Below, one piece after another: positions 1,806 to 33,212 of a stretch of 64,000 nt of DNA (within the stretch, counting starts at the first letter, position 1; every line of letters starts with the position of its first letter). Origin of the DNA: Solobacterium sp. (lineage in GTDB: Bacteria > Bacillota_I > Bacilli_A > Erysipelotrichales > Erysipelotrichaceae); NCBI GenBank assembly GCA_024696355.1, contig JAILGV010000182.1, forward strand, positions 1-64,000, read 5' to 3'. A program made the position numbers and the translations under genes. A model generated the notes under the pieces. It searched no databases. It was not told the DNA's origin and saw only the letters and a program-made list of their open reading frames with translations.

Positions 1806-2417
1806 ATGTTCTGGGATAAAGTTGCCGGTGTATATGACATCTTTGTCAATGTGATCAACAGAAAAACGCATCAGAAGCTGAAGAAGATCGTAACGGAGAT
1901 GATCGGGCATGATGACACGGTGCTTGAATGCGCATGCGGAACAGGGCTTCTGAGTGCCGTAATTGCCCTGAAATGCAGACAGCTGACAGCGACGGATTTT
2001 TCGCGGAAGATGCTGAAAAAGGCTGAAAGGAACTGCAGTGCTTTTCGCAATATACGCTTTGCACAGGCTGACATCACGGCACTTTCCTATCCGGACAGCA
2101 GCTTTGACAAGGTTGTGGCGGGGAATGTGATCCATCTGCTTGATCATCCGCTGACAGCACTCAGTGAAATGAACCGGGTCTGCAAGGACAGCGGAATGCT
2201 GATTATCCCGACTTACATAAATAAAGACCCTGAAGGAAGAACAAGCGTCTTTGCCGGTGCTGTAGGAAAAGCCGGGGCGAATTTCAAACGGCAGTTTACC
2301 GCAGACAGCTACAGAAAGTTTTTCCTGGATGCAGGGTATCAAGATGTGAAAGTCTTCATGGCTGACGGACGCATTCCCTGCGCTGTGGCGGTTATGAAAA
2401 AGTCGGTGAAGACCTGA
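1806..2417 (+). CDS. Class I SAM-dependent methyltransferase
   Basis: The 203-residue protein has a typical small-molecule methyltransferase fold: the SAM-binding motif I is VLECACGTG (residues 39-47), an acidic residue follows in TATDFS, and a post-motif region reads ALSYPDSSFDKVVAGNVIHLL. The substrate is unknown. The ATG at 1806 is preferred because GGGAGG lies just upstream and family members begin with MFWDKVAGVYD; the frame also has a GTG at 1761 with a poorer site. It is the first gene after the two operators, and a second MTase of the same general type lies at 10167. Confidence 0.85.
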   Translation: MFWDKVAGVYDIFVNVINRKTHQKLKKIVTEMIGHDDTVLECACGTGLLSAVIALKCRQLTATDFSRKMLKKAERNCSAFRNIRFAQADITALSYPDSSFDKVVAGNVIHLLDHPLTALSEMNRVCKDSGMLIIPTYINKDPEGRTSVFAGAVGKAGANFKRQFTADSYRKFFLDAGYQDVKVFMADGRIPCAVAVMKKSVKT

Positions 2418-2478
2418 GAAGCATTAACCTGAAAAACGGTGACGGTTAACCGCTGCCGGAAGCGGAGGAATGAAATTT

Positions 2479-3228
2479 ATGAGGATCATCGAGTTTGGTA
2501 GGGAGAAACCGGAATGCATCCTGCTGATCCATCCGTCGATGGTAACGTGGGATTATTTTGAAAATGTCATCCCGCTGCTGAAGGAGCATTACCATTTACT
2601 GATACCTGCACTTCCGGGATATGACCTCAAGGATGATTCGCATTTCTGTTCTGTTGAGCAGACCGCATCACAGCTGGCGGATGAGCTTTTGCAAAAAGGA
2701 ATTCGGGAACTGAAGGCGGTGTACGGCTGCTCCATGGGAGGAAGCATCGTTCTCAGAATGGCTGCGGACGGAACAGTAAAGGCGCAGAATTACATCATGG
2801 ACGGGGGAATCACTCCTTATCAGCTGCCATGGCTGCTGACCCGGTTTATTGCACTGCGTGATTTCGCAATGATGGCTCTCGGAAAACTGGGCGGGGAAAA
2901 ACTGGTTGTGAAGGCATTCAGTTCCACCCGTTACAGTGAGGAGGACCTGAAATATGTTGCTGCGATTTTCCGCCACTGCACGTACAGGACGCTCTGGAAC
3001 ACCTTTGACTCCTGTAATAATTATCAGATGCCGAAAGAAACAATGCGGTTCTCCGGGAAGATGTACTACTGGTATGCGGAAAAGGAACGCAGAGCCAGGG
3101 AATGGGATCTGAAATATATGAAGAAATTTGTTCCCGATACTGTTTTCAAAAGCTTTGCGGGGATGGATCACGGGGATATGGCGCTGTTTTATCCTGAGAA
3201 GATGGCACAGGAGTTTCTGAAGCTGTAG
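2479..3228 (+). CDS. Alpha/beta-hydrolase family protein
   Basis: This is an alpha/beta hydrolase of about 249 residues. It has an oxyanion-side LLIHPSMV segment, a nucleophile elbow YGCSMGGS (serine in GCSMG), and a C-terminal histidine in GMDHGD. There is no signal peptide. The ATG at 2479 lies 9 bases after GGAGGA; an in-frame ATG at 2470 touches that site directly and is less likely. It sits 61 bases after the methyltransferase and 22 bases before the reductase-like gene, consistent with one transcript. Substrate unknown. Confidence 0.8.
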   Translation: MRIIEFGREKPECILLIHPSMVTWDYFENVIPLLKEHYHLLIPALPGYDLKDDSHFCSVEQTASQLADELLQKGIRELKAVYGCSMGGSIVLRMAADGTVKAQNYIMDGGITPYQLPWLLTRFIALRDFAMMALGKLGGEKLVVKAFSSTRYSEEDLKYVAAIFRHCTYRTLWNTFDSCNNYQMPKETMRFSGKMYYWYAEKERRAREWDLKYMKKFVPDTVFKSFAGMDHGDMALFYPEKMAQEFLKL

Positions 3229-3250
3229 CGAAGGCTCTGCAGGAGGAGAT

Positions 3251-4222
3251 ATGAAGATTTTAGTATACGGTGCCGGTGTGATCGGCGGACAGCTTGCACA
3301 CGCGCTTATGGCAGGCGGAAGCGACGTGACGGTGATCGCCCGGGGTGCATGGGCTGATACGCTCCGGACAGAAGGACTTCGGATCCATCATTACGTTCAG
3401 CGAAAGGATACCGTGGACTGGCCGCATGTTCTGGAAGTCCCGGACGGGCAGCGGTACGACGTTGTATTTGCTGTCATGCAGTACAGGCAGATGGAAAAGA
3501 TTCTGCCGGATCTTGCACGAATCAACAGTCCGATCGTCATACTGACAGGCAATAACCTGTCCGCTTCTGAAATGGAAAGACGGATACTTGAAAACAGCAG
3601 GGAACCGAAAACAGTACTCTTCGGATTTGGTTCTACTGCAGGCACAAGGGAAAACGGAAGACTTACGACTGTCCACACAGGTAACGGACGGCTGACCATA
3701 GGAAAAGCACAGGGTGAAATACCTGATGAAGTGAAGGCTGTCCTTCAGCAGGTTTTCTCCGGAAGCAGGCTCTCCGTGGCAGTCTGCGACAATATGGATG
3801 CATGGCTCAAATATCATGCGGCATTCATTCTGCCGGTTGTCTATCTTTGCTACAAAACGGGCTGTGATCTTAAAAAGTCAACACGGGCGGAGCGAAAACT
3901 CCTGCTTGACGCAGTACGGGATGCCTATCATCTGCTCATGGCACAGGGGTATCCCGTCCGTCCTGAGGGCGATGAAAAATCTCTGGAACCGGGACCTGCG
4001 AACGCAATGGTCAGGTTTGTCATCTGCCTGGTATCGGGAACGCGGCTCGGCGCACTCTGCACGACTGAGCACTGCCGGCACGCTCCGGGCGAAATGGAAG
4101 ATCTGGACAGGGAGTTTCAGCTGATAAGGGAAAGACAGTCCTCTTTTGAGATGCCGTCTTTCGACCGTCTACGTGCCATGATGCCCGCGTGGGATCAGAT
4201 CCGCAGTACTTATGCAAGATGA
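3251..4222 (+). CDS. Ketopantoate reductase-family (ApbA/PanE-like) oxidoreductase
   Basis: The 323-residue protein begins with an NAD(P)-binding Rossmann motif (VYGAGVIGG, residues 5-13) and has the two-domain layout of ApbA/PanE proteins. The region aligned with the catalytic Lys/Asn helix reads AWLKYHAAF. Lysine is kept, but the Asn expected four residues later is not, unlike the canonical WNKLMINAS of the second paralogue at 21980. It therefore probably reduces something other than ketopantoate. RBS AGGAGG precedes the ATG. It lies within the metal-linked operon. Confidence 0.8.
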   Translation: MKILVYGAGVIGGQLAHALMAGGSDVTVIARGAWADTLRTEGLRIHHYVQRKDTVDWPHVLEVPDGQRYDVVFAVMQYRQMEKILPDLARINSPIVILTGNNLSASEMERRILENSREPKTVLFGFGSTAGTRENGRLTTVHTGNGRLTIGKAQGEIPDEVKAVLQQVFSGSRLSVAVCDNMDAWLKYHAAFILPVVYLCYKTGCDLKKSTRAERKLLLDAVRDAYHLLMAQGYPVRPEGDEKSLEPGPANAMVRFVICLVSGTRLGALCTTEHCRHAPGEMEDLDREFQLIRERQSSFEMPSFDRLRAMMPAWDQIRSTYAR

Positions 4223-4323
4223 ACTGCATCCTGCTTATAACAGCGGTACAGATGTTGCATGTTTCTTACAGCCGAACTGTGCTGTGAAAATACAAAAGAA
4301 TATAAAAGAAGGAGAAAATGAAA

Positions 4324-4587
4324 ATGATTATCGGCGAAAAAGTTGCACTGTTTCTCGGAGGAACGCTTTTTGGATCAGCCGGCTTAAAGATCCTGTCAGG
4401 CAAGGATGCCCGTAAGGTTTATGCGCACACGACCGCTGCCGTGCTTCGCGGCAAAGATGAAGTTATGAAGCATGTGGAGCTTGTTCAGGAAGGATGCTCG
4501 GATATTCTTGCCGAAGCAAAACAGATCAATGCGGACCGCAGAAAAGCTGAAGAGGCAGAATATATCGAAGAAAGCGCGGAAGCATGA
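4324..4587 (+). CDS. DUF6110 family protein, FezA-like
   Basis: The small protein of about 87 residues has a glycine-rich hydrophobic N-terminal segment (LFLGGTLFGSAG), then KDARKVYAHTTAAVLRGKD, and an acidic, charged C-terminus. This matches my memory of the DUF6110 family, which sits directly upstream of P1B-type ATPases, and resembles the small glycine-rich ferrosome proteins. The ATG at 4324 is 9 bases from GGAG; ATG 4318 is an alternative. Its stop overlaps the ATPase start (ATGA), implying translational coupling and joint function at a membrane. Confidence 0.75.
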   Translation: MIIGEKVALFLGGTLFGSAGLKILSGKDARKVYAHTTAAVLRGKDEVMKHVELVQEGCSDILAEAKQINADRRKAEEAEYIEESAEA

Positions 4588-6683
4588 GATTCAGGATTTT
4601 GCATGAGCTGCCCGGAAGAATGCGGCTCAGGGCAGAAGTGCGGTCTATGAGCCTGCAGCAGGCGGATTTACTGGAAGCATGGCTCAGTGCTCAGCCGGAT
4701 ATAGATGAGGTGACGGTCCATGAGCGGACATGCGGTATTACTGTGATCTATCACTGCGGCCGCTCAGAGCTTTGCAGGCTTCTTTCCGGCTTTACCTGCA
4801 AAAATGCAGAACAGGCGGTGGATCTCAGGACCTGCGGCAGCCGCAGTATGAACCGGGCTTATAAGGAAAAACTCGTATTTCTTGTCGTCAGACATTTCCT
4901 GAAGCGGATCTTTCTGCCGGTTCCTTTCCGCAGGGCAATTACCGTCGCTCAGACCATGCCGCGGTTTGTACATGCCGCGTCTGTGCTTTCATCCGGAAGG
5001 CTGACAGTTGATGTCCTTGACGGTATTGCCATTGGTGCCTCGCTTCTGACAGGAGACCATCAGACCGCAGGGTCTGTCCATTTTCTGCTGAACGTGGGTG
5101 AAACACTTGATGAATGGACGCACAAAAAGTCAGTGGAGGACCTGGCAAAGAGCATGTCCCTTCAGGTCGATCAGGTCTGGCGCGTGGACGCAGACGGAAG
5201 GCAGAGCACAGCCCCGCTTGACAGTATCGTTCCCGGAGACAGGATCATTGTCCATACAGGACATATTCTGCCCCTGGACGGGATCCTGGAAGACGGGGAC
5301 GTTATGCTGAATCAGGCGTCACTGACCGGAGAGAGCGTGCTTGTGGCAAAGAGGACGGGTGCTGCCGTATATGCAGGCTCCGTCGTGGAAGAGGGGAGCT
5401 GCGTGATCCGCGTGACGCATTCAACAGGAGAAAACCGCTACGACAGGATCGTCCGTATGATCGAGGAATCGGAGCGCCTGAAATCTGCTGTTGAGGAAAG
5501 ATCAAACAGTCTTGCCGACAAACTTGTGCCGTGGTGCCTGTCGGGAAGTCTGCTCACCTGGCTTCTCACAAAAAATGTTGCCAGAGCAGTATCGGTTCTG
5601 ATGGTAGATTTCTCCTGTGCACTTAAACTTTCAATGCCGCTGAGTGTATTGTCAGCCATGCGGGAGGCAAGCCGCCGCAAGATAACAGTAAAAGGCGGCA
5701 AATTCATGGAAAAGATCAGCGAAGCTGATACCGTGATTTTCGATAAAACGGGAACACTGACAAAAGCATGCCCGACAGTGGTGAAAATTGTACCCTTCGG
5801 CGGAGAAAACCCGCGGGAAATGCTGAGAACTGCTGCATGTCTTGAGGAGCATTTTCCGCATTCCGTTGCCAACGCAGTTGTAAAGGCGGCTGCCGATCAG
5901 GGTCTTGATCACAGAGAGATGCACAGCGAGGTGAAGTATGTCGTGGCGCACGGGATCGCATCAAAGATCGGTAAAAAACGCGCAGTTATAGGCAGTGCAC
6001 ATTTCGTTTTTGAAGACGAGAACGTAAAGATCCGTCCTGAAGATCAGCAGCTTTTTGACAGCCTTTCACAATCGCTGTCATGGCTGTATTTAGGCGTCGG
6101 CGGTGTGCTTTGCGCAGCGATCGGCATAAGTGATCCGCTGCGGCCGGAGGCACGTCAAACTGTTCGCCAGCTTCATGCGGAGGGAATCACTAAGACGGTA
6201 ATGCTTACGGGAGACAGCCGGAGAACGGCTGAAGCCGTGGCAGATGAGCTTGAAATTGATGAATACTGGGCAGAGGTGCTTCCGGAGGACAAGGCAGCAT
6301 TTATCAGGGCAGAGCATCAGGCCGGAAGGACTGTGATTATGATCGGCGACGGAATCAATGATACACCGGCACTTTCGCTGGCTGACGTAGGCATTGCTGT
6401 GGGCACCGGCGCAGTTATAGCAAGAGAGGTTGCAGATGTGACCATTGAGGCGGAAGATCTCAGGGAGCTGGTCTGGCTGAAACACCTGAGCAGTGCACTG
6501 ATGAGGCGCATCAACAGGAACTATCGGTTCGTGATGGGCTTTAACGGATCGCTGATCCTGCTTGGCGCGTTCGGGCTTCTTGCTCCGGCGGCAAGCGCGC
6601 TTCTGCACAATACTTCGACGGTACTGCTGAGCATGGACTGCCTTACAGAATTACTTCCTGATGATCGTGCCGGCTGCATATAA
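4584..6683 (+). CDS. P1B-type heavy-metal-transporting ATPase with SCA motif (FezB-like)
   Basis: This 699-residue ATPase moves a transition metal across a membrane using ATP. Visible motifs are the actuator TGE (248-250), the ion-path motif DFSCALKLSMP with SCA at 344-346, the phosphorylation site DKTGTLT starting at D387, an HFPHS variant of the HP motif, and the hinge GDGIND near residue 587. The N-terminal 80 residues resemble HMA_2 and have no CxxC. An SCA path motif is what I recall for the P1B-6 group, which includes the ferrosome ATPase FezB; iron is thus the inferred metal. It overlaps the DUF6110 gene by four bases. Confidence 0.85.
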   Translation: MRFRILHELPGRMRLRAEVRSMSLQQADLLEAWLSAQPDIDEVTVHERTCGITVIYHCGRSELCRLLSGFTCKNAEQAVDLRTCGSRSMNRAYKEKLVFLVVRHFLKRIFLPVPFRRAITVAQTMPRFVHAASVLSSGRLTVDVLDGIAIGASLLTGDHQTAGSVHFLLNVGETLDEWTHKKSVEDLAKSMSLQVDQVWRVDADGRQSTAPLDSIVPGDRIIVHTGHILPLDGILEDGDVMLNQASLTGESVLVAKRTGAAVYAGSVVEEGSCVIRVTHSTGENRYDRIVRMIEESERLKSAVEERSNSLADKLVPWCLSGSLLTWLLTKNVARAVSVLMVDFSCALKLSMPLSVLSAMREASRRKITVKGGKFMEKISEADTVIFDKTGTLTKACPTVVKIVPFGGENPREMLRTAACLEEHFPHSVANAVVKAAADQGLDHREMHSEVKYVVAHGIASKIGKKRAVIGSAHFVFEDENVKIRPEDQQLFDSLSQSLSWLYLGVGGVLCAAIGISDPLRPEARQTVRQLHAEGITKTVMLTGDSRRTAEAVADELEIDEYWAEVLPEDKAAFIRAEHQAGRTVIMIGDGINDTPALSLADVGIAVGTGAVIAREVADVTIEAEDLRELVWLKHLSSALMRRINRNYRFVMGFNGSLILLGAFGLLAPAASALLHNTSTVLLSMDCLTELLPDDRAGCI

Positions 6684-6729
6684 GTGAAATATGGTTTAGA
6701 AAGAAAGAGAAATACAGAAGGAAACCGTT

Positions 6730-7227
6730 ATGCTGATAACACTGTTTTTGGCAATCATCTTCTGCGGGGCAGTTACACTCCTGCTCATATCGGCAGTTGC
6801 TTTTGTACAGGATAAGAGGCTCTTTTCATCAGCGCCGAAAGAGGCGCAGATGGTGCTGAAACCAAGAAGCGGTGAACTGTTTTACGGAGCCGGAGCCATG
6901 GGATGGGTGATGATAATCCTGAGCATTCTGATGATTCTGGGCGTGGGCGTGATCGCCGTCCTGGACGGCATGCGGAACAACTTTTCCTTTATCCGGTTCT
7001 TCCTGCGTTTTGTGCTGATCCTGACGATCTACAAAGCCTACGACATGATCTTTTTCGACTGGTTTCTCCTGTGCAGATTCCGGTTCTTTCAGCATTATTA
7101 CCCTGAAGTGGAGCGTGTGTACAACGGCAGAAAGTACGGATACAACCTCAAAAGCCAGCTCCTGAAGCTGCTGGTCATTTTCCCTGCAGGATCTGCGCTG
7201 GCGGCCTGGATCTGCACGCTGTTTTGA
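6730..7227 (+). CDS. Small integral membrane protein, paralogue of the 11674 protein
   Basis: The 165-residue protein has about four hydrophobic segments (residues 3-25, 55-78, 85-105 and 145-163). The central KAYDMIFFDWFLLCRFRFF resembles NWYDGIVIDRLWVGHSRFW in the protein at 11674, so the two form a diverged pair inside one operon. I do not recognise a named function. The location right after the metal ATPase suggests a role in the same membrane system. RBS AGAAGGAAA precedes the ATG. Confidence 0.7.
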   Translation: MLITLFLAIIFCGAVTLLLISAVAFVQDKRLFSSAPKEAQMVLKPRSGELFYGAGAMGWVMIILSILMILGVGVIAVLDGMRNNFSFIRFFLRFVLILTIYKAYDMIFFDWFLLCRFRFFQHYYPEVERVYNGRKYGYNLKSQLLKLLVIFPAGSALAAWICTLF

Positions 7228-7271
7228 CGCATGACGGAAAACCGCAAATGAGTGAGATGGAGGAACGACTT

Positions 7272-8042
7272 ATGGAATTTACGGAAACGGGGCTTGAAAA
7301 CGGGAAGACCCTGATGCTGCTGCCGGGGACAGCCTGCGATTATCAGACAAACTTTGCGGCAGTGCTGGAACCGCTGGGAAAGAAATATCATCTGATCTGC
7401 GTCAACTATGACGGATTTGACGGAAGCGATACGGTTTTTCCCGATATGATTACGGTCACTGAAAAGATAGAAACATACATAAAGGAAAAGCACGGAGGCC
7501 GTCTGGACGGCGCAATCGGATCATCGCTGGGCAGCAGCTTTGTCGGGCAGCTGATCCAACGTGAAAACATCCATATTGATCACGGTATTTTCGGGAGTCC
7601 GGATCTGGATCAGAGCGGGAGATTCAGCGCCTGGCTGCAGTCGAAACTGGTCGTGCCGCTTCTGACGGGTTTTACAAAGAACGGGAAAAAGATGGCGAAA
7701 ACCAGAGAAAAGCTCAAAAGTTTTTTCGAAATGGATGATGAAACAGCTGACCGGTTCATAGCCTGCTTTGCAAGATTCAGCCCGGAGTCCATCAAAAACG
7801 AGTATTATACGGATCTGATTACCCGTCTGAAGGATGATATCCATGTAAAGAACACAAAAGTGCACTTTATCTATGCAAATAAGATGGGGGAGAAATACCG
7901 GAAGCGATATATTAAGTATTTCCGGAATCCGGATATCCGGGAATTTGATATGCAGCACGAGCAGTGGCTTTTCGGCGGTGAAGAGTATACCGTGCCGGTG
8001 CTGAAGGCAATCGATGAATTTATGGAAATGCCCGCAGACTGA
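7272..8042 (+). CDS. Alpha/beta-hydrolase family protein
   Basis: This protein of about 256 residues has alpha/beta-hydrolase hallmarks: MLLPGTACD near the N-terminus, a nucleophile elbow IGSSLGSS, and a candidate histidine in DMQHEQW. The frame extends upstream to 7224, but the ATG at 7272 has a GGAGGA site at the right distance and gives an N-terminus like the hydrolase at 2479. The substrate is unknown. A second hydrolase in the same operon suggests successive ester or thioester cleavages in a pathway, which is inference. Confidence 0.7.
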   Translation: MEFTETGLENGKTLMLLPGTACDYQTNFAAVLEPLGKKYHLICVNYDGFDGSDTVFPDMITVTEKIETYIKEKHGGRLDGAIGSSLGSSFVGQLIQRENIHIDHGIFGSPDLDQSGRFSAWLQSKLVVPLLTGFTKNGKKMAKTREKLKSFFEMDDETADRFIACFARFSPESIKNEYYTDLITRLKDDIHVKNTKVHFIYANKMGEKYRKRYIKYFRNPDIREFDMQHEQWLFGGEEYTVPVLKAIDEFMEMPAD

Positions 8043-8063
8043 TGAAGGAGGTGCAGCCAATCA

Positions 8064-8690
8064 ATGAAACTTGGAGTCATAGGCAGATTATTTCCGCTCA
8101 TGTTCAGCAGGGTGGTCTACGGATATACTGCCGGGGCAGTACCGGAGATGAACATACGTGCGTTTAGGAAAAAGCATCAGAAAGAATATGAAGCGATGGT
8201 CAGAAGAACACCTTCCGTCGGTTCAATGAAAGACAATATGTTTGCGCCGGTGATGTATATGGCCTGCTACGGATTCTCCTATTACAAGGCGGATCCCGAG
8301 CATATTACGACGGAAGTTTTTGACGGAATGATCGACGCTCTCTGCAAAAGCGAAATGATGAAGCGATTCTATCGGGGAAAGAACTGCTTCGATCCCGAAG
8401 AGATCAGGAAATACGTCCGCGGATCTCAGCGCTCACAAAAACGGGAATACCCCATGGACTGGGTTTTCGATTTTTCATATGATCTCTCCGTGCCGGAATA
8501 CTACGTTACGCACCGTGAGTGCGGTGTCTGCAAGATCGGGCAGCAGGAGGGGCTGATGTTCCTGACGCCTCATATGTGCGTCATGGACTATCCGACGATT
8601 GAATATAAAGGAGGAAAGCTGCTGCGCACAAAGACCCTCGGCGGGGGCGGCGACTGCTGCGATTTCCACGTAGTCAAGGGAGACAGGTAA
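8064..8690 (+). CDS. L-2-amino-thiazoline-4-carboxylate hydrolase family protein (1)
   Basis: The 208-residue protein fits the ATC hydrolase family, named for a Pseudomonas enzyme that opens a thiazoline ring. The C-terminal third carries the diagnostic cysteines: CGVC (153-156), MCVMDYP (Cys172) and GGGGDCCDFH (198-202). The Cys/Asp/His pattern could bind a metal. A near-perfect AAGGAGGTG precedes the ATG. The next gene, one base away, is a diverged paralogue, and a third copy lies at 17721 behind the same operator type. The real substrate in this group is unknown. Confidence 0.8.
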   Translation: MKLGVIGRLFPLMFSRVVYGYTAGAVPEMNIRAFRKKHQKEYEAMVRRTPSVGSMKDNMFAPVMYMACYGFSYYKADPEHITTEVFDGMIDALCKSEMMKRFYRGKNCFDPEEIRKYVRGSQRSQKREYPMDWVFDFSYDLSVPEYYVTHRECGVCKIGQQEGLMFLTPHMCVMDYPTIEYKGGKLLRTKTLGGGGDCCDFHVVKGDR

Positions 8691-8691
8691 T

Positions 8692-9324
8692 ATGAGATAT
8701 ACAGGAATGCCTCATGGCATGTGGGTGCTGTTTGCCGGATCGTTCCGGAAACACCTGTCATCGGTTTTCGGATATGATTCTGAAACGGCACAGGCTCTCA
8801 CCGGCAGGGCAAAGCTGAAATATAAAGAGATCATCAGCCGGCTTCCGGAATTCGAAAAGGGTGACCGATTTAAAATGAACATCGTCAGCTGTGCGATGCT
8901 TTCTGCTTTTCTGCTGAATCTGCCGGAAAAACCGACATTGGAAAAGACAGAGGAGTACTACCGCGCAGCTATGATGACCGTCCCGATGAAGTGGTTCTGC
9001 CGGATGACGGGAAAAAAGAAATTCAGTGAAAAGGGTATTCAGGGGCTGAAAAAAACCGCCGCGCTGCGTGCTGCGGACCGGAATCCGTATTCCTGGAACA
9101 TGGAGTTTCTGCCGTATGAGGACGGAAGCGGTTATGAAGCCAGATTCACAAAATGCGGCATCTGCACACTGATGCGGGAGCTCGGGCTTTATGACCTTGT
9201 TCCGGCTATGTGCCGTATGGATTACACCATGAGCGAAGCAGGCGGCACCAGTGATTTTATCCGGGAGTATACATTGGCTTCCGGCGGACCGTACTGCGAC
9301 TGCGGTTACAGGAAGAAAGGTTGA
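8692..9324 (+). CDS. L-2-amino-thiazoline-4-carboxylate hydrolase family protein (2)
   Basis: This 210-residue paralogue of the preceding protein keeps the cysteine layout: CGIC (155-158), MCRMDYT (Cys174) and GGPYCDC (202-204). The terminal CDFH motif has become CDCG. The one-base gap to the upstream gene suggests coupled translation and perhaps a heteromer. The following methyltransferase begins four bases after its stop. Function unknown; the family call rests on the C-terminal motif. Confidence 0.7.
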   Translation: MRYTGMPHGMWVLFAGSFRKHLSSVFGYDSETAQALTGRAKLKYKEIISRLPEFEKGDRFKMNIVSCAMLSAFLLNLPEKPTLEKTEEYYRAAMMTVPMKWFCRMTGKKKFSEKGIQGLKKTAALRAADRNPYSWNMEFLPYEDGSGYEARFTKCGICTLMRELGLYDLVPAMCRMDYTMSEAGGTSDFIREYTLASGGPYCDCGYRKKG

Positions 9325-9328
9325 TGCT

Positions 9329-10162
9329 ATGAAATATCATATTGAGAAAAACACCGTTCAGGAGACACTGGTCATCCCGCTGTTCGGGCGGCTTATATGC
9401 TCCGAACATTTTCCGGAATTGTTTTTCGATCCCGAGGCACAAAGAATCTGTGAAAGTCTGGATTACGACTTTGCCGACAAACGAAAGAAAATGGAGTCGG
9501 CAGCCGGACTTTTCGGGGCTTTAGAGGTGGCACAGCGGCAATATGACGTGCGCTGTGAGGTGGAGGAGTATCTGAAGGAACACCCGGAAGCGGCGGTGGT
9601 CAACCTGGGCTGCGGTCTGGACGACACCTTCCTGAAAGTCGATAACGGGCAGTGCCGGGGTTATAACATCGATCTGCCGGATGTAATTAAGGTTCGTGAT
9701 GATCTTCTTCCGGCTGGTGAGCGTGAAATGAATCTCGCCTGTGACCTGAACGATATTTCCTGGATGGATCAGATCGATGCCGGCGGCGGAGCAGTCTTCT
9801 TTGCCACAGGTGTTTTCTACTATTTCAGGACGGCGGATGTGAAAAAGCTGTTCTGCGCCATGGCAGAACACTTTCCCGGCGGCGTACTGGTCTTCGATTC
9901 CTGCAATAAGCTCGGCGCAGGGCTCATGCGGAAGACCTGGCTGAAGGGGGCGGGAATCACCGGCGTAGACGCCTTTTTCTGTCTGGAGGACGAGTCGGGG
10001 CTCGCACTCTGGAGTGATCATTTCACTTCTGTCTCATCCAGAAGCTACATGCGGGGATATCGGGATATTTACCGGAATGTAGGCATATTCCATAAGCTGA
10101 TGATTCGTTTAAGCGACGGACTGGTCAGGATGAAGATCGTCAGAATCGTTTTCGGAGGGTAA
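9329..10162 (+). CDS. O-methyltransferase, PPM1/LCM (TcmP-like) family
   Basis: The 277-residue protein resembles leucine carboxyl methyltransferase/TcmP-type O-methyltransferases. Motif I reads VVNLGCGLDD (about residues 89-98), followed by a YNIDLPDVI acidic loop and an FFATGVFYYF motif. Members methylate carboxyl or hydroxyl groups of small molecules. The frame is open upstream to 9251, but the ATG at 9329 comes after the stop of the previous gene and near an AGGAAGAAAGG site. It is one of three methyltransferases in the operon. Confidence 0.75.
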   Translation: MKYHIEKNTVQETLVIPLFGRLICSEHFPELFFDPEAQRICESLDYDFADKRKKMESAAGLFGALEVAQRQYDVRCEVEEYLKEHPEAAVVNLGCGLDDTFLKVDNGQCRGYNIDLPDVIKVRDDLLPAGEREMNLACDLNDISWMDQIDAGGGAVFFATGVFYYFRTADVKKLFCAMAEHFPGGVLVFDSCNKLGAGLMRKTWLKGAGITGVDAFFCLEDESGLALWSDHFTSVSSRSYMRGYRDIYRNVGIFHKLMIRLSDGLVRMKIVRIVFGG

Positions 10163-10166
10163 GGGG

Positions 10167-10847
10167 ATGACACGGAAGGAACAAATCAGAAACGCATATA
10201 AGCTGACAGGAAAGCATGACGGATTATACGACGGGATGATGACCTGTTCCACGCTTTTGGGTAAAGCGATCTGCGGGATCGTCTGGAACATGGACAAAGA
10301 AAAAAATCTCCGTTATCTGGAAAAGGCTATGTCGGGAATTCCCGAAGACTTCTCCGGCAAGCTGCTGGAGGTCCCGGTCGGAACCGGCATACTGACTATG
10401 CCGGTCTACAGCAGTCTTCCGGATGCGGAAATTACCTGTCTGGATTATTCGGAGAATATGATGGCCTCTGCACAGGAAAAAGCCGGTGTTTTAGGGCTTA
10501 AGAATATTACCTTCCGGCAGGGCGATGTCGGTGCGCTGCCTTTTGAAGACGGCAGCTTCGACATTGTGCTGTCCCTCAACGGTTTTCATGCCTTTCCGGA
10601 CAAGGAGGCCGCCTACAGAGAAACCTGCCGGGTGCTGAAGCCGGGCGGTACCTTCTGCGGATGCTTCTATGTGCAGGGAGGAAACAGGCGGACCGACTGG
10701 TTTATCAGGCATCTCTATCAGCCGAAGGGATTTTTCACCCCGCCTTATGAGACAGAGCAGAGCCTTCGCATGCGGCTTTCAAAGCTTTACAGGAAAGCGG
10801 AGGTTTCCATGGTGGAAGGAATGGGGTGCTTCTGCTGCAGAAAATAA
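10167..10847 (+). CDS. Class I SAM-dependent methyltransferase
   Basis: The 226-residue methyltransferase has motif I LLEVPVGTG, an acidic loop TCLDYSENMM, the segment GALPFEDGSFDIVLSLNG and a VLKPGG turn, so it belongs to the Methyltransf_11/UbiE-like group. It is probably cytosolic and acts on a small molecule or lipid. It starts four bases after the previous stop, with GGAGGGTAAGGGG as ribosome site. The end reads GMGCFCCRK, an unusual cysteine-rich tail that might touch metal. Confidence 0.8.
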   Translation: MTRKEQIRNAYKLTGKHDGLYDGMMTCSTLLGKAICGIVWNMDKEKNLRYLEKAMSGIPEDFSGKLLEVPVGTGILTMPVYSSLPDAEITCLDYSENMMASAQEKAGVLGLKNITFRQGDVGALPFEDGSFDIVLSLNGFHAFPDKEAAYRETCRVLKPGGTFCGCFYVQGGNRRTDWFIRHLYQPKGFFTPPYETEQSLRMRLSKLYRKAEVSMVEGMGCFCCRK

Positions 10848-10860
10848 AAGCTGCAGGAAC

Positions 10861-11649
10861 ATGAATATCCGGAGCATTTTGATTGAAATACCCGTCCTTG
10901 CGTCATTATATGCTACGGTCTTTTACTGCCGGACGGCTGAGTGCCCCCGTGAAGCGGCGTGTGAGGAAAACATTATGAAGAGATGCAGTGTATGGAAAAT
11001 TCTTTTCCCGATCGGGATCTGTACTGTGGAATTTTTGATTACGGCATTATTTCTCTATCCGAAAGCCCGAAGAGGCGAACTGCTGTCCGTACGTCGTGCC
11101 GCAGAGAATCTTCCCGGTATCTTTATGCAAAGCGCAGCAGTATTTCTTTTTCCGGCTGCTCTGCTGATTCTGTCCGCACTGCTTTTGCACAAGGATTTTG
11201 CACAGCAGATGTATATGACGCTGAAAGGGAAATGGCAGCGGATTTCAGCCTGCATACTCATCTCTGCAATCTCGGTGATTACCGTGTATTCTCTGATTGT
11301 CAGTGAAGACAAAACAGCTGTCCTGTTCAGTCTCTTCTATTATTCAGTCTTTATCGCATTTGCCGAGGAATTTGTGTGTAGAGACGTATGTACCTGGTTC
11401 CTGCGGGATTTCCGCTGGCCGGTGCGTTACCTGATACCGAATATTTGCTTTGCTCTGCTGCATCTGTTCAGTGCTGCCGGCTGGGGTGAAATCACAGGTG
11501 CAGTCATTCTGCATTTTCTCACATCAGATGCGGCTGGTTTTGCTGTATACGGATGTCTTATGCAGCTGCTCAAAGAGAAATCCGGCACGATCTGGCTGCC
11601 CGTACTCCTGCATGCGCTGATGGATTATTCGGTTGTTTTGAAGTATTAA
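10861..11649 (+). CDS. CPBP-family intramembrane metalloprotease-like protein
   Basis: A protein of about 262 residues with at least six hydrophobic segments. The CPBP (type II CAAX prenyl endopeptidase/Abi) motifs are present in order: FAEEFVCRDV (EExxxR), FALLHL, and HALMDY near the C-terminus. Such proteins cleave or process membrane-bound targets. The start is set at the ATG at 10861 after GCAGGA, because the longer frame (from 10669) runs inside the previous gene. It lies in the metal-linked operon. Confidence 0.7.
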   Translation: MNIRSILIEIPVLASLYATVFYCRTAECPREAACEENIMKRCSVWKILFPIGICTVEFLITALFLYPKARRGELLSVRRAAENLPGIFMQSAAVFLFPAALLILSALLLHKDFAQQMYMTLKGKWQRISACILISAISVITVYSLIVSEDKTAVLFSLFYYSVFIAFAEEFVCRDVCTWFLRDFRWPVRYLIPNICFALLHLFSAAGWGEITGAVILHFLTSDAAGFAVYGCLMQLLKEKSGTIWLPVLLHALMDYSVVLKY

Positions 11650-11673
11650 GAGAGGCATTCACGGGTAATAAGC

Positions 11674-12150
11674 ATGATCATTCTGCAATTGATTCTATAT
11701 TGTGCCCTGTTTACGGTAATGGTAAAAACCGGCGTGGGAAATAATGCGCTGAACGGTTTGTACTTCTATCCGAAACCTGTCCGGGAAAGGGTGTATGAAC
11801 TTGGACTGACAGACAGGGAAACGGTAGGAAAGAAACGGAAATATTTTATGACCGCGTTTTTTTCCGTGATGACAGCGGCTTTGATTCTGATAATCCGTGT
11901 CTGGAATGGGCAGGATTGCTTTTGGCCGGCGTACCGGCAGGCACTGCTGTTTCTTGAAGTCATGAACTGGTACGACGGAATCGTGATTGACCGCCTCTGG
12001 GTGGGGCACAGCCGGTTCTGGATGATACCCGGCACTGAGGATATTCAATACGTGCAGACCTGGCCGCAGGTCTTTAAGAAACGCGCGATCCTGACACTGA
12101 TCTGGATCGCAGGGGCGGCAGCTGCGGCGATTATCATTATGTTGTTTTGA
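11674..12150 (+). CDS. Small integral membrane protein, paralogue of the 6730 protein
   Basis: The 158-residue protein has hydrophobic segments at about residues 2-20, 60-80 and 135-157. The conserved centre NWYDGIVIDRLWVGHSRFW followed by MIPGTED resembles the equivalent part of the protein at 6730. I know similar proteins only as uncharacterised membrane proteins. It begins 24 bases after the CPBP gene; its ribosome site is weak, so translation may be coupled. Confidence 0.65.
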   Translation: MIILQLILYCALFTVMVKTGVGNNALNGLYFYPKPVRERVYELGLTDRETVGKKRKYFMTAFFSVMTAALILIIRVWNGQDCFWPAYRQALLFLEVMNWYDGIVIDRLWVGHSRFWMIPGTEDIQYVQTWPQVFKKRAILTLIWIAGAAAAAIIIMLF

Positions 12151-12161
12151 AGGAGGTTAAA

Positions 12162-13028
12162 ATGGCAAGGAAAGATTCAGAAAATCAAAAGAAATCCATG
12201 AGCCGTCTGTTTCGCGGAAAAGCAATTTTCAAACCGCTGAATACAGGCAGAATTGACGGGCATGTCAGCTGCGTCCGGGAGTGGGTTGCAAATATCTTTT
12301 TCTACACAAAAAACGGCGTCACAATCATGATTGACGCAGGCTATAACTATGCGCGTCTGCAGGAAAAGATGGGCTGGCTGGATATCGATCCGGCCTCAAT
12401 CCGGCATATCCTGATCACACACCAGGATACAGATCACGTCGGTGCACTCGAACCGGACAGCGAACAGCTGTTTAAAAACGCAGAGGTGTATATCGGCGAG
12501 ATTGAAAACCGCTATCTGACCGGTGAAGCACGGCGCCGGGTCATACACAGGCTCTATAAGCTGCCGATGGTAACGATCAATAATCCGAAACGACTTCTGA
12601 AAGACAGTGAAGTGATCCGTATCGGTGATATCAGGATCGAATGTATTCTGGTTCCCGGGCACACCTGGGGACACATGGTGTATTTGATTGATGATGCATA
12701 TCTTTTCACCGGCGATACGATCTGGTTCGGCGCTGACGGCGGATACAGCTTCATCAGCACACTGGCGGAGGACAATAAGCTGGCTGTGCAGTCACTTGAA
12801 AAACTGGAAAATAACATTCGGGCAAGAAAACAGCCGGTCAAAATTATACCCGGACATACCGGATGGACGGATGATCTTGATTTTGCTTTCAGGCACAGAA
12901 CTGAAATCTGCAGTCCGTTTACGAAGAAATATACGGATCCATCTGCACCATACGATGGTTACATAGAGGATGATGATACCGAAGAATGCGCAAGAAGCGT
13001 ACTTCTGAGAAAGGTGACAGTGAAATAA
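12162..13028 (+). CDS. Metallo-beta-lactamase-fold hydrolase
   Basis: The 288-residue protein is an MBL-fold hydrolase: THQDTDHVG (H87, D89, D91, H92), PGHTWGH (H167), TGDTIW (D185) and PGHTGWT. The usual second histidine of HxHxDH is aspartate here, a variant I have seen in Firmicute members, so metal preference may be shifted. It starts at ATG 12162 after AAGGAGG; the upstream TTG in frame overlaps the previous gene. It is the last gene before a gap of about 350 bases, probably the operon end, although I see no clear terminator. Confidence 0.8.
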   Translation: MARKDSENQKKSMSRLFRGKAIFKPLNTGRIDGHVSCVREWVANIFFYTKNGVTIMIDAGYNYARLQEKMGWLDIDPASIRHILITHQDTDHVGALEPDSEQLFKNAEVYIGEIENRYLTGEARRRVIHRLYKLPMVTINNPKRLLKDSEVIRIGDIRIECILVPGHTWGHMVYLIDDAYLFTGDTIWFGADGGYSFISTLAEDNKLAVQSLEKLENNIRARKQPVKIIPGHTGWTDDLDFAFRHRTEICSPFTKKYTDPSAPYDGYIEDDDTEECARSVLLRKVTVK

Positions 13029-14463: not shown

Positions 14464-14496
14464 ACAAACAGTTTGAGTTTCGGAGAGGTGATTATT

Positions 14497-15147
14497 ATGA
14501 ATTATAAAGTTATAGACAGAGAGACATACTATCGGAAGGGAGTATTCCGTCATTTTTCAGAGGACTGCAGGTGTTCGACTTCAATGACAGCAAGAATTGA
14601 TGTTACGGATCTTGTTCATTATTCAAAAGAGAAAGGCACAAAGTTTTACATCAATTTTCTCTATATTCTTTCAAAGGTTCTCAATTCCCGTGAAGACTAC
14701 AGAATGGGTTACCTCTGGCAGACGGATGAACTGATCTGTTATGACGTCATCAATCCTACACAGTATGTTTTTCATGAAGATACGGAAACCTGTACGCCTG
14801 TATACACAAAATATGATGAGGATTACAGCAGATTTTATGCAGGTGCGGTACAGGATGTTGAAGAAGCAAAGAAGACAAGGGAATACGGCCTGAATATGGC
14901 TGATCATCCGAACTGGTTTGACGCATCTTATATTTCATGGCTCTCTTATGATTCTCTGAATATTGAGCTGCCCGACGGATATCTGTTTTTTGCACCGATC
15001 ATCAACTGGGGAAAATACAGAGAGGAAAACGGCAAACTGGTCATGCCTGTAAGTGTCCGTCTGAATCATGCGGTCGCTGACGGTTATCTGGTCGCAAACG
15101 TATTCCGTCTCCTTGAGCAGGAAATGAAGTCATTTGTCAGACGGTAA
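14497..15147 (+). CDS. Chloramphenicol acetyltransferase-like protein
   Basis: The 216-residue protein has the full length and order of CAT-type acyltransferases: an N-terminal YYxKxxFRHF region, NWFDASYISWLSYDSL in the middle, and the active-site motif NHAVADGY (HxxxDG with the catalytic histidine kept, the preceding His being Asn). CAT enzymes acetylate chloramphenicol, but many chromosomal relatives have unknown acceptors, so resistance is not implied. The ATG at 14497 follows GGAGAGGTG. Confidence 0.8.
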   Translation: MNYKVIDRETYYRKGVFRHFSEDCRCSTSMTARIDVTDLVHYSKEKGTKFYINFLYILSKVLNSREDYRMGYLWQTDELICYDVINPTQYVFHEDTETCTPVYTKYDEDYSRFYAGAVQDVEEAKKTREYGLNMADHPNWFDASYISWLSYDSLNIELPDGYLFFAPIINWGKYREENGKLVMPVSVRLNHAVADGYLVANVFRLLEQEMKSFVRR

Positions 15148-15186
15148 ACAGCATCTTTATAAAGTATGAAGTGGGAGGACGCAGAA

Positions 15187-16008
15187 ATGAATCAGAGCGA
15201 GAGGCTCGATTATCTTCTGGAACAGTTTAAGGAAGATTCCGTACAGTACAGAAATCTTAAGACACCGGCCGATCCGGAAGGAAAAAGACAGATTCTCCGA
15301 TCACTGATGAATATCCGTATGCCCGGGGTTATGCCTGCTTCTGTTATAAAAATTCAGGATGAATACCTGCAGGAGAGGAACAGACTGAACGGTATCGTTC
15401 GGATTTCCGATATTCCGGCGGTTAAGGATCTTGGAAGCAGCCATCCCTTTGCGGACCGTATTTCCCTCTGGCAGGGAGATATTACGAGGCTGTCCGTTGA
15501 TGCGATTGTAAATGCGGCCAATTCACAGATGCTCGGATGCTTTGTTCCGATGCATGCCTGCATCGATAACTGCATCCATACATATGCCGGAATTCAGCTT
15601 CGTGCGGAATGTGCCGGGAAGATGAGAGAACTTCGTCTCAGATATGGTGATGATTATGAACAGCCCACGGCTGTACCGATGCTGACGGACGGGTATAATC
15701 TTCCGGCAAAGAAGGTGATCCATGTTGTCGGTCCGGTCGTATCAGGAAAACTGACGGAACGGCTGGAACAGGATCTGGCAGCCTGCTACAGGAATACACT
15801 TGATATGTGCCTGGAAAACGATCTGAAAACTGCTGCGTTCTGCTGTATCTCCACAGGAGTCTTCCGTTTTCCGAATAAGAGAGCTGCACAGATCGCGGTA
15901 AAAACAGTGACTGACTGGCTGACAGAACATCCGGCTTCGATGAACAGAGTGATCTTCAATGTTTTTAAAGATGAGGACAGAGAATATTATGAACAGGAGT
16001 TATTTTAA
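15187..16008 (+). CDS. Zinc-type macrodomain protein, protein-ADP-ribose hydrolase
   Basis: The 273-residue protein has an N-terminal helical region and a macrodomain (about 95-270). VDAIVNAANSQMLGC followed by FVPMHACIDNCIHT matches the zinc-containing macrodomains of SirTM operons, with the zinc-binding Cys/His/Cys kept. These enzymes remove ADP-ribose from proteins modified by class M sirtuins. The start at 15187 follows GGGAGGAC. The gene overlaps the sirtuin start by 20 bases, so the writer and eraser are made together. Confidence 0.88.
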   Translation: MNQSERLDYLLEQFKEDSVQYRNLKTPADPEGKRQILRSLMNIRMPGVMPASVIKIQDEYLQERNRLNGIVRISDIPAVKDLGSSHPFADRISLWQGDITRLSVDAIVNAANSQMLGCFVPMHACIDNCIHTYAGIQLRAECAGKMRELRLRYGDDYEQPTAVPMLTDGYNLPAKKVIHVVGPVVSGKLTERLEQDLAACYRNTLDMCLENDLKTAAFCCISTGVFRFPNKRAAQIAVKTVTDWLTEHPASMNRVIFNVFKDEDREYYEQELF

Positions 16009-16978
16009 ACAGCCTGACGGTTACCGGGAGACAATCAGACGGGGTATTGACGGCGTGCGCAGATTCCGTTCCGGCCTGACCGGAGGAAATCTTACCCGCA
16101 GGGAAGCAGTCTGCAGACTGAAACAGGAAATCAGAACAGCCGATGCTGTCCTGATCGGAGCCGGTGCAGGGCTTTCGACATCTGCTGGATTTATTTACAG
16201 CGGAGAACGCTTCAGCAGATACTTTTCTGATTTTGAAGAGTGCTTCGGAATACAGGACATGTATTCAGGAGGCTTTTATCCGTATCCTGATGCAGAGACA
16301 AGATGGGCATTCTGGGCAAGAAATATCTACGTAAACCGCTATATGGATCCTCCCAGGCCTGTCTATAACGATCTGTTTGAACTTGTTAAGGAAAAAGACT
16401 ATTTTGTGATCACCACAAATGTTGATCATTGTTTTCAGAAAGCCGGCTTTGATAAGAAACGTCTGTTTTACACACAGGGAGATTACGGCCTTTTTCAGAG
16501 CACGGATCCATCCAACAGAATTACATTTGATAACGAAGAGTGGGTGATGAAGGCGATGGAATCCCAGGGATTTGTCAGGAATGCCGAAGGAATCTTTGAA
16601 ATGCCGGAATGCGGTGTTTCACTGAAGATACCCGCAGGCTTAATCCCGAAGCACCCGTATGACGGATCGGAAGTCACAATGAACCTCAGGGGAGATGATT
16701 CCTTCGTGGAAAATGAAGGGTGGTTTCAGGCATCTGCGGCATATGCGGATTATCTTGCAGAGCATGCCGGTCAGCATATTCTTTTTCTGGAAATAGGTGT
16801 CGGCGCGAATACGCCGGTGATTATCAAATATCCGTTCTGGCAGATGACAAACGATAACCCGGCGGCCTTTTATGCCTGTCTCAATTATGATGATGCTGTA
16901 TGTCCGAAACAGATTGAAGAGCGCTCTGTCTGCATCAGCGCAGACGCCGGAGAGGTGATCAGGGAGCTGCTGAAATAA
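15989..16978 (+). CDS. Class M sirtuin (SirTM-like), protein ADP-ribosyltransferase
   Basis: The 329-residue protein has the sirtuin NAD site GAGAGLSTSAGF (57-68) and TTNVDHCF (142-149), and the SirTM-type end LEIGVGANTP. In the known family this enzyme ADP-ribosylates a GcvH-like lipoylated carrier. The zinc cysteines seen in other SirTM proteins appear replaced: the stretch after TQGDYGLFQ has Ser where Cys is expected, and the later CPxCG site reads HPYDG (222-226). No GcvH-L or lipoate ligase gene is nearby. It overlaps the macrodomain gene. Confidence 0.82.
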   Translation: MNRSYFKQPDGYRETIRRGIDGVRRFRSGLTGGNLTRREAVCRLKQEIRTADAVLIGAGAGLSTSAGFIYSGERFSRYFSDFEECFGIQDMYSGGFYPYPDAETRWAFWARNIYVNRYMDPPRPVYNDLFELVKEKDYFVITTNVDHCFQKAGFDKKRLFYTQGDYGLFQSTDPSNRITFDNEEWVMKAMESQGFVRNAEGIFEMPECGVSLKIPAGLIPKHPYDGSEVTMNLRGDDSFVENEGWFQASAAYADYLAEHAGQHILFLEIGVGANTPVIIKYPFWQMTNDNPAAFYACLNYDDAVCPKQIEERSVCISADAGEVIRELLK

Positions 16979-17173: not shown

Positions 17174-17202
17174 TTGATTTTCTTTTCCTTCAAGTCTATA
17201 TT
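17174..17202 (+). promoter_or_regulatory. Sigma-A promoter of the HMA-protein operon
   Basis: The -35 box is TTGATT (17174-17179), the spacer is 17 bases, and the -10 box is TATATT (17197-17202). The operator palindrome begins eight bases after the -10 box, as in the promoters at 1435 and 18487. Confidence 0.75.
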
Positions 17203-17210
17203 TTAAAACG

Positions 17211-17226
17211 GTTAGTGTACACTAAC
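17211..17226 (+). promoter_or_regulatory. Palindromic operator GTTAG-N6-CTAAC, copy 3
   Basis: GTTAGTGTACACTAAC is a perfect 16-base palindrome over the expected transcription start. It precedes an HMA-domain metal-binding protein, which supports a metal-responsive regulator. Confidence 0.75.
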
Positions 17227-17336: not shown

Positions 17337-17594
17337 ATGAAAAAGATAACAATGAAAATTGACGGAATGATGTGCGGTATGTGTGAGGCACATATATGCG
17401 ACACAATCCGGAAAGCAGTGCCTTCTGCAAAGAAAGTCTCAGCATCCAGAAACAGAAAGGAAGCTTCCTTCCTGACAGAGGAGGCCGTGGATACAGCCGG
17501 TCTCAAAGCCGCAATTGATGCCACAGGTTATACCTGTCTTTCCGTTGAATCAGCTCCCTGTGAGAAGAAAGGGCTGTTCGGAAGGTTCTTTTGA
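17337..17594 (+). CDS. Heavy-metal-associated (HMA) domain protein
   Basis: The 85-residue protein is a single ferredoxin-like HMA domain with metal site GMMCGMC (residues 11-17). The end, EKKGLFGRFF, is a cationic aromatic tail I associate with small HMA proteins near iron or zinc uptake genes. It may act as a metallochaperone or sensor. ATG 17337 follows AGAGAGGAC, leaving a leader of about 125 bases after the operator. The ATC-hydrolase-family gene at 17721 is next on the same strand. Confidence 0.85.
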   Translation: MKKITMKIDGMMCGMCEAHICDTIRKAVPSAKKVSASRNRKEASFLTEEAVDTAGLKAAIDATGYTCLSVESAPCEKKGLFGRFF

Positions 17595-17720: not shown

Positions 17721-18329
17721 ATGAAAAATGCAGAAAAAATACTGAGTAAAAAATATATTTTCAAAGAAGAAATGGATAAAATCATGCCGAAGGCGCAAAG
17801 TGATGACCTCTGGCATAAAGCGTCAAAGAAGCTTGAAGAACTCCTGATCCGTTACAGCTCACTTCCGAAAGGTGTGCATATTCATTCGGACGAAAGGATT
17901 CTGCCCTCAGCGGCAGTCTATCTGACTCTGCGGGATGAGATAGGACGGGAGAAAGCATATCAGGTAATTGAAAACGGAGCTGTCAGGGGATGTATCAGCA
18001 TAGAAGCGAAACTGCAGAAGCTGATGAAGCTTCCCGGGATGCCGAACCTGTTCATCCGCATGTGGGATCCTCTTGTAAAAAGGGTATTTGGTCCGGATAA
18101 CGGTTTTCAAAATACGTTCTATCCCGGAAAGAAAGGAGAGTACCGGATGGATGTTACGGCCTGTCCGTACTGCCGGATCACAACTGAACTGGGCTGTCCC
18201 GAAATTACCGGAATTTTCTGTGATAATGACGAACGGATCTACGGCGGTCTTCCGGGTATAAAATTCGAAAGATCATCAACACTCGGAAAAGGGGCAGACC
18301 GCTGCGATTTTCACATCAGCAGGAAATAA
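17721..18329 (+). CDS. L-2-amino-thiazoline-4-carboxylate hydrolase family protein (3)
   Basis: The 202-residue protein shares the C-terminal cysteine pattern of the two proteins at 8064 and 8692: CPYC (148-151), Cys159 and Cys167 in the middle, and GADRCDFH (195-198). It has no signal peptide. It follows the HMA gene by 126 bases with no terminator between, so it is probably under the same metal operator. This third paralogue strengthens the link between the family and metal control in this genome. Substrate unknown. Confidence 0.75.
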   Translation: MKNAEKILSKKYIFKEEMDKIMPKAQSDDLWHKASKKLEELLIRYSSLPKGVHIHSDERILPSAAVYLTLRDEIGREKAYQVIENGAVRGCISIEAKLQKLMKLPGMPNLFIRMWDPLVKRVFGPDNGFQNTFYPGKKGEYRMDVTACPYCRITTELGCPEITGIFCDNDERIYGGLPGIKFERSSTLGKGADRCDFHISRK

Positions 18330-18486: not shown

Positions 18487-18514
18487 TTGATTCTGTAAAT
18501 TCAGCATGTATAAT
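18487..18514 (+). promoter_or_regulatory. Sigma-A promoter of the ZIP transporter gene
   Basis: The -35 box is TTGATT (18487-18492), the spacer is 16 bases, and the -10 box is TATAAT (18509-18514). The operator palindrome starts seven bases later, at 18522. Confidence 0.8.
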
Positions 18515-18521
18515 AGATGCA

Positions 18522-18537
18522 GTTAGATATAACTAAC
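18522..18537 (+). promoter_or_regulatory. Palindromic operator GTTAG-N6-CTAAC, copy 4
   Basis: GTTAGATATAACTAAC has perfect 5-base arms, extended by A/T on each side (AGTTAG and CTAACT). It lies just after a near-consensus promoter and directly controls a ZIP-family metal transporter, the best evidence that the operator is metal-responsive. Confidence 0.75.
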
Positions 18538-32063: not shown

Positions 32064-32111
32064 ATCAATATCATACCTTATAAACGCATTGGTGTGATTT
32101 TTTGTTCTGCA

Positions 32112-32125
32112 GATTGTATACAATC
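32112..32125. promoter_or_regulatory. GntR-type palindrome in divergent promoter region
   Basis: GATTGTATACAATC is a perfect 14-base palindrome. Its core TTGTATACAA matches operators typical of FCD-type GntR regulators. It lies between the divergent ApbE-like and FMN-lipoprotein genes, and a GntR-FCD gene is at 29446. TATACT (32141-32146) on the plus strand could be a -10 box. Confidence 0.55.
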
Positions 32126-32171
32126 GGCAAAATCATTTGTTATACTGATAATACATGAAAGGAGTCATGAA

Positions 32172-33188: not shown

Positions 33189-33212
33189 TAATTAAGAAGA
33201 GGGAAAGAAAAA

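Follow-up and report, generated by a model that had tools for sequence, protein, structure and literature searches.

What holds an operon of assorted enzymes together around a metal-transporting ATPase is the question raised by a contig of Solobacterium sp. (assembly GCA_024696355.1, contig JAILGV010000182.1), whose first 64,000 nucleotides, forward strand, form the window analysed here. Between positions 1806 and 13028, 14 genes lie tightly packed on the + strand, their families assigned by Pfam profile matches, and 12 of them accompany a DUF6110/P1B-type ATPase pair. A sequence-only reading of the window had described this co-oriented set and its named families in the same way, apart from counting eleven further genes where its own list sums to 12. 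Its remarks on spacing also hold: the intergenic distances are -4 to 52 bases, with one exception of 95 (from the KPR gene to the DUF6110 gene), and no terminator was matched in any gap between module genes, the region's weak consensus matches being all intragenic. GC content is 0.49–0.53 over 2–12 kb compared with ~0.46–0.47 across most of the remaining window. Judged from sequence comparison, the operon is probably one regional form of a mix-and-match enzyme module that spreads by horizontal transfer and would be switched on when iron is short.

This answer starts from the promoters. The pattern GTTAG-N6-CTAAC occurs at only four sites in the window, two before the module operon, one before a gene for a small HMA-domain protein and one before a ZIP metal transporter gene. 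Pattern searches placed a promoter, TTGATT-17-TATAAT, ahead of the operon (1435–1463, + strand), with operator copy 1 (GTTAGTGGAATCTAAC, 1472–1487) 8 bp after its -10 box; operator copy 2 (GTTAGCTATTGCTAAC, 1722–1737) has perfect 6+6 arms and lies 68 bp before the first ATG. Near-identical promoters, again with the palindrome directly after the -10 box, precede the HMA unit (TTGATT-17-TATATT, 17174–17202, + strand; copy 3, GTTAGTGTACACTAAC, 17211–17226) and the ZIP gene (TTGATT-16-TATAAT, 18487–18514, + strand; copy 4, GTTAGATATAACTAAC, 18522–18537). TTGATT-N16/17-TATAWT is found exactly three times in the 64 kb (0.09 expected), each time 7–8 bp ahead of an operator copy. A repressor sitting on the palindrome after the -10 box would block initiation.

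The same site recurs in related loci from other genomes, where 1.44 Mb of sequence holds 116 copies of the palindrome, 113 of them intergenic, versus 1.35 in block-shuffled sequence. When the arm spacing was varied from 0 to 12, a spacing of 6 returned 112 copies and every other spacing 0–4, GTTAG being far the commonest among 5-base arms. A promoter -10 box ends 6–10 bp ahead of the palindrome in 32 of 88 clearly oriented copies (0.9 expected). Downstream genes encode LCM, MBL, MT1, ATC2, HMA, ZIP, YbtP-like, TetR, DUF3793, DUF2325 and FeoA proteins. At four loci (L073, L074, L075 and L101 in our numbering) the palindrome lies between divergent DtxR and FeoA genes, and in same-family relatives it precedes FeoA-FeoB, NrdI/flavodoxin with DUF3793, and an operon of ECF and YbtPQ-like genes. 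The Solobacterium genome itself contains the palindrome nine times, always next to metal or module genes: in the window (four), at a second module on contig C122 (three), at mntP and at csoR-copA (one each). It contains none of the reversed control pattern, and its one DtxR-family gene is on a different contig from the window. The placement of the palindrome argues for a metal-responsive repressor. A metal or iron regulon is in our judgement very likely, and we infer DtxR to be the binder and iron the signal. Like DtxR/IdeR regulons, the set, as read from sequence, places a palindromic operator where transcription of FeoAB, dtxR and iron-limitation genes begins; it differs in having GTTAG arms 6 bases apart and in including an undescribed enzyme module. 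That an mntP-type gene for a manganese exporter (L160, 8558–9227) and csoR-copA (L161, 5652–8895) are also preceded by the palindrome hints at a wider metal response.

Neighbourhood comparison gives the second line of evidence. The bait was the LCM-family methyltransferase of the operon (9326–10162, + strand), a core member of the module. Among 84,980 species genomes scanned we found at least 555 relatives, and within the family of Solobacterium as defined by GTDB 33 of 146 genomes carry one. The best 80 of these at least 555 relatives are 74–86% identical to the bait and belong to bins of Lachnospiraceae, Oscillospiraceae, Erysipelotrichaceae (Solobacterium), Christensenellaceae and Sphaerochaetaceae. 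Their titles comprise 37 RGIG bins, which name the animal and organ, together with 27 RUG and 5 RUI bins, which we take to be rumen collections; carriers were thus found here mostly in ruminant-gut bins among the best 80, a bias that need not hold for the family as a whole.

For the neighbourhoods, genes were predicted by a codon-model caller and grouped into clusters, and families were named with Pfam. About 95 of them (from Erysipelotrichaceae, Lachnospiraceae, Oscillospiraceae, Christensenellaceae and spirochaete bins) draw on a common enzyme pool in shuffled order. Counts refer to the same-strand run around the LCM gene at 95 loci, and are lower bounds because many short contigs interrupt the runs. 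Methyltransferases of the MT3/MT1 type occur in 39 runs, with two additional methyltransferase families in 18 and 15; PF14196 proteins follow with ATC2 in 38 and ATC1-type in 15, hydrolases with MBL in 26, ABH2 in 17 and ABH1 in 15, and MEM1 and KPR are found in 16 and 5. On the metal side, HMA is present in 29 runs, ZIP in 28, FeoB in 3, and the importer halves YbtQ-like and YbtP-like in 11 and 10. The usual metal partners of LCM modules are the HMA protein and the ZIP transporter, both present in the window. Across 50 LCM-bearing genomes, module-type HMA genes (at least 112 bits) number 37, of which 26 lie within 3 kb of an LCM gene (0.09 expected). Examples of runs include one of 26 genes beginning with two FeoA genes and FeoB (L086) and one of 19 genes that holds FeoB, DUF3793, flavodoxin and an ATP-binding cassette (ABC) pair (L074). 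The idea of a metal-linked enzyme pathway in the sequence-only reading is in this sense borne out, both by the operators and promoters in common with the HMA and ZIP genes of the window and by recurrence with HMA, ZIP, FeoAB, DtxR and YbtPQ-like genes elsewhere. The portions of the open-licence literature consulted hold no description of the module or of the operator.

A second copy of the module is found in the same genome (L162, contig C122, 1369–7331): an ABH1-like gene, a PF14196 gene and an LCM paralogue are followed by a YbtP-like/YbtQ-like pair, and the operator occurs there three times. For these ABC halves the best half-transporter matches of known structure are YbtP and YbtQ (6p6i_A; 6p6i_B/8vsi_B); full P-glycoprotein-type chains score higher, via their two halves. 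Other genes recur in or near modules as well. DUF6796 membrane proteins are repeatedly present within them (L041, 12779–13471; L062, 7092–7832; L078, 9512–10210; L092, 8838–9566), a thiaminase I-like gene (BcmE model, below cut-off) adjoins the module at L035 (5203–5709) and has relatives in L052 and L104, and in two Sphaerochaetaceae bins (L109, L111) an operator copy and then an MMPL-family transporter gene come after the LCM and HMA genes.

The module has apparently passed between lineages, to judge from sequence relationships. Within the best 80 relatives, identity of the window LCM to genes from bins of Lachnospiraceae and other Clostridia reaches 86%, and in the comparison used for the LCM tree it is 85% identical to a gene of a Lachnospiraceae bin. 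One backbone gene on the window's contig (57829, MurT-like by eye) has its nearest match in the same genus, at 66%, in a genus mate that has no LCM gene. Family labels are scattered over the LCM tree, with 19 changes against a minimum of 5, counts that are rough because bins and NCBI labels were used. Plasmid and phage searches with the LCM gene returned distant matches only, at no more than 34% identity, and five IMG/VR contigs carry LCM relatives of 42–44% identity with zero operator copies. That the module is a mobile, modular set seems to us very probable.

Taken gene by gene (all on the + strand), the operon opens with MT1 (1806–2417), an S-adenosylmethionine methyltransferase of UbiE/Methyltransf_11 type by Pfam with a GGGAGG ribosome-binding site before the ATG at 1806. 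It is followed by the alpha/beta-hydrolase ABH1 (2470–3228), whose nucleophile motif is kept in 20 of 22 members, and a KPR/ApbA-family oxidoreductase (3251–4222) with GAGVIG in all eight. After the DUF6110 and ATPase genes come MEM1 (6730–7227), a membrane protein predicted to be helical, and ABH2 (7224–8042), an alpha/beta-hydrolase with a weak Pfam match of 15 bits, in whose family 23 of 25 members carry GSSLG. ATC1 (8064–8690) and ATC2 (8692–9324), the latter a core member, have the PF14196 'ATC hydrolase' profile; the LCM gene, also a Pfam assignment, leads to MT3 (10167–10847), a second UbiE-type methyltransferase by Pfam and likewise core. A CPBP (Rce1-like) membrane protease (10849–11649; Pfam), rare in other modules, MEM2 (11674–12150) and an MBL-fold hydrolase (12147–13028) close the operon. 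Further downstream lie the small HMA-domain protein (17337–17594; Pfam, GMMCGMCEAH), a third PF14196 protein, ATC3 (17721–18329; Pfam), and the ZIP transporter (18590–19369; PF02535, 84 bits); the HMA and ZIP proteins are counted with the core. Catalytic motifs are mostly retained, namely GxSxG in both hydrolase families, GAGVIG in KPR, NLGCGLD in LCM and DKTGT in the ATPase.

MEM1 and MEM2 had been called related. They do have in common two Asp residues, invariant in the wider family as well, but are distant relatives at ~20% identity, and a fold comparison with the predicted MEM1 structure (predicted local distance difference test, pLDDT, 86) gave no convincing match. PF14196 scores above cut-off in all three window copies (78–96 bits), and the aligned proteins share invariant cysteines; a search of its profile against PDB sequences returned no credible match. 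The predicted structure of ATC2 (pLDDT 94) has its closest fold matches in H-NOX, TRAPP/Bet3 and the MopR/PoxR sensor domains, at a modest Z of ~6, and on this model they form one coherent ligand-binding class. The family label, L-2-amino-thiazoline-4-carboxylate hydrolase, may mislead for the module proteins because the fold predicted here is similar to that of H-NOX/TRAPP/V4R domains, which bind ligands. In the MBL protein HxDxDH replaces HxHxDH in 28 of 29 members. Flavo-diiron proteins carry HxExDH, and the carboxylate of the module motif recalls theirs and, by analogy, would suit iron.

We propose that a metal-loaded DtxR-type repressor would bind the palindrome and release it at low iron, and that the module enzymes would then act on a small molecule that binds iron, either by making it or, as seems likelier, by modifying and unloading it. 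YbtPQ-like pairs would import this molecule, and the metal would be moved or stored by ZIP and HMA, joined in some modules by FeoB or the P1B6/DUF6110 pair; enzyme subsets would differ by strain because the ligands differ. Iron-ligand chemistry of any kind is, in our judgement, just on the probable side, and the earlier suggestion of a metallophore is in that respect plausible, given the YbtPQ-like importer and the iron-type operator. Several observations count against this proposal. Most modules have no YbtPQ-like pair, although the pair may sit elsewhere, and the taxa rest on bins of metagenome-assembled genomes, which may contain stray contigs. The regulator is assigned solely by position, DtxR adjoining the sites, and the arm spacing of 6 is unlike the classical DtxR box. 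A manganese or broader metal response is possible because mntP and csoR-copA stand under the same site. Counted genome-wide, the exact palindrome does not exceed the reversed control in many AT-rich relatives, so it is to be trusted solely in promoter context. Finally, no nonribosomal peptide synthetase (NRPS), NRPS-independent siderophore synthetase (NIS), nicotianamine synthase-like or ligase gene recurs in module runs, and no such family was matched by two or more of the 80 other run members scanned; the absence of a recurrent assembly enzyme weakens biosynthesis.

Processing or import is accordingly likelier than assembly, and unloading rather than synthesis is the tentative choice within iron-ligand chemistry. 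In the version that we favour, itself put forward tentatively, the module would unmake iron chelates that plants or rivals bring into the ruminant gut: esters would be opened by hydrolases and by the MBL protein, which is lactonase-like, O-methyltransferases would cap phenolic or catecholic groups, and iron would be freed. The several kinds of hydrolase, the up to five methyltransferases and the missing assembly enzyme are consistent with it, as are the origin of nearly all carriers among the best 80 in ruminant-gut bins and the presence of MopR/PoxR phenol- and catechol-binding domains among the ATC2 fold neighbours; the latter matches are modest, however, and include binders of heme and acyl groups alongside those of phenols.

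That the module builds a new small metallophore entirely from primary metabolites, such as an opine-like compound made by KPR and the methyltransferases and re-imported by the YbtPQ-like pair, appears rather unlikely. It would account for the iron-type operator, the importer, the many tailoring enzymes and the variation among strains, but KPR is present in only 5 of 95 runs, and the other run members hold neither a recurrent NRPS, NIS or ligase nor a recurrent dedicated exporter. Yersiniabactin and mycobactin uptake (YbtPQ, IrtAB) offers a parallel in its related ABC half-transporter pairs, encoded in the same regulon or operon, whereas the module has no recurrent siderophore synthetases and a different enzyme set.

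Handling of tetrapyrroles (heme or chlorophyll derivatives) under iron control is improbable. ATC2 is predicted to match H-NOX heme domains, the model nearest to ABH1 in NCBIfam is BchO, a weak match, and tolI of the tolyporphin cluster encodes a PF14196-type protein (PMC8401325). That cluster, however, is a cyanobacterial tetrapyrrole cluster with hem genes, and no further gene of the list in PMC8401325 is shared with the module; heme or chlorophyll enzymes do not recur in the modules, and H-NOX-like folds bind many ligands.

It remains to place the ATPase, which the sequence-only reading had made the organising centre. The DUF6110 protein (4318–4587, + strand; PF19605, 104.6 bits), a FezA/PacL-like partner, and the P1B6-like ATPase (4584–6683, + strand; SCALKL in the fourth transmembrane helix and no CPC, an HN motif near the C-terminal end, DKTGT kept) are both optional members. 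Adjacent genes with a 4-base overlap and iron-type control sites liken them to the ferrosome (fez) pair of FezA/DUF6110 and the P1B6 ATPase FezB; the differences are that the pair here lies within a 14-gene enzyme operon and that the enzyme module mostly occurs without it. No DUF4405/FezC-type cytochrome was matched by Pfam in the module operon. PacL-CtpC platforms, in which DUF1490, related to DUF6110, accompanies a P1B ATPase and CtpC serves zinc resistance, similarly encode a small DUF6110/DUF1490-type partner with a P1B6-type pump; enzyme cargo like that of the module is not described in the sections seen of that report (PMC9374683).

That the enzymes and the transporter work as a single ferrosome-type system, in which the enzymes supply a compartment lipid or cofactor, we consider quite improbable. 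DUF6110 and P1B genes are each present in only 7 of 95 LCM runs, and most fetched DUF6110/P1B loci have no module enzymes, which is why the 12 enzyme genes are not classed as fez genes. The loci are of two kinds, module-embedded (L125, L131, L147, L148) and solitary, some with Opp, DtxR, DUF2325, DUF3793 or flavodoxin. What speaks for one system is that solitary DUF6110/P1B operons have the operator in common with the module (L128, L137, L143, L144, L145), and that DUF6110 is found in 32 of 50 LCM-bearing genomes compared with 15 of 291 genomes of class Clostridia (over cut-off; Fisher p ~2e-21) and 4 of 146 in the GTDB family of Solobacterium (above cut-off). Common habitat could account for part of this excess. 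Only 8 of 35 DUF6110 genes in the 50 genomes lie within 5 kb of an LCM gene (~0.14 expected). Because few LCM runs hold the pair, yet proximity is far above chance, the ATPase is best placed, on sequence grounds, as an optional partner in the same regulon and not as the hub of the module; the enzymes are only partly conserved with it, and the metal link survives through other genes. Lipid-synthesis genes do not recur and nothing points to a lipid, so that the compartment-lipid idea, for which no gene spoke, was dropped. An ordinary island of unrelated enzymes with coincidental neighbours, as the highly shuffled order and variable content might suggest, is hardly credible, being contradicted by the recurrent partners, the shared operator and the very high enrichment.

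Three other loci of the window deserve mention. A CAT-family acetyltransferase gene lies outside the module beside two GNAT genes and a macro gene (14473–15147), and a macro-domain protein stands ahead of one that looks Sir2-like (by eye, from its GAGAGLS motif; Pfam gave no match; 15166–16978), an arrangement that resembles macrodomain/SirTM pairs. At 30175–33914, ApbE and FMN_bind lipoproteins together with rhodanese-like lipoproteins likely form an extracytosolic flavin electron-transfer locus.

Returning to the iron-responsive module, it is possible, if on the doubtful side, that PF14196 proteins and several methyltransferases constitute a new class of iron-ligand chemistry without NRPS or NIS enzymes, which horizontal transfer has carried among gut phyla and gene shuffling has diversified, and in which ferrosome-type storage may but need not form the last step. 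The operator offers a handle, since a single motif finds the regulon. If the proposal is true, several lineages of ruminant-gut bacteria would compete for iron by means of a shared, unrecognised enzyme kit, and PF14196, DUF6796 and DUF3793 proteins, together with DUF6110/P1B pumps outside C. difficile, would gain a working context.

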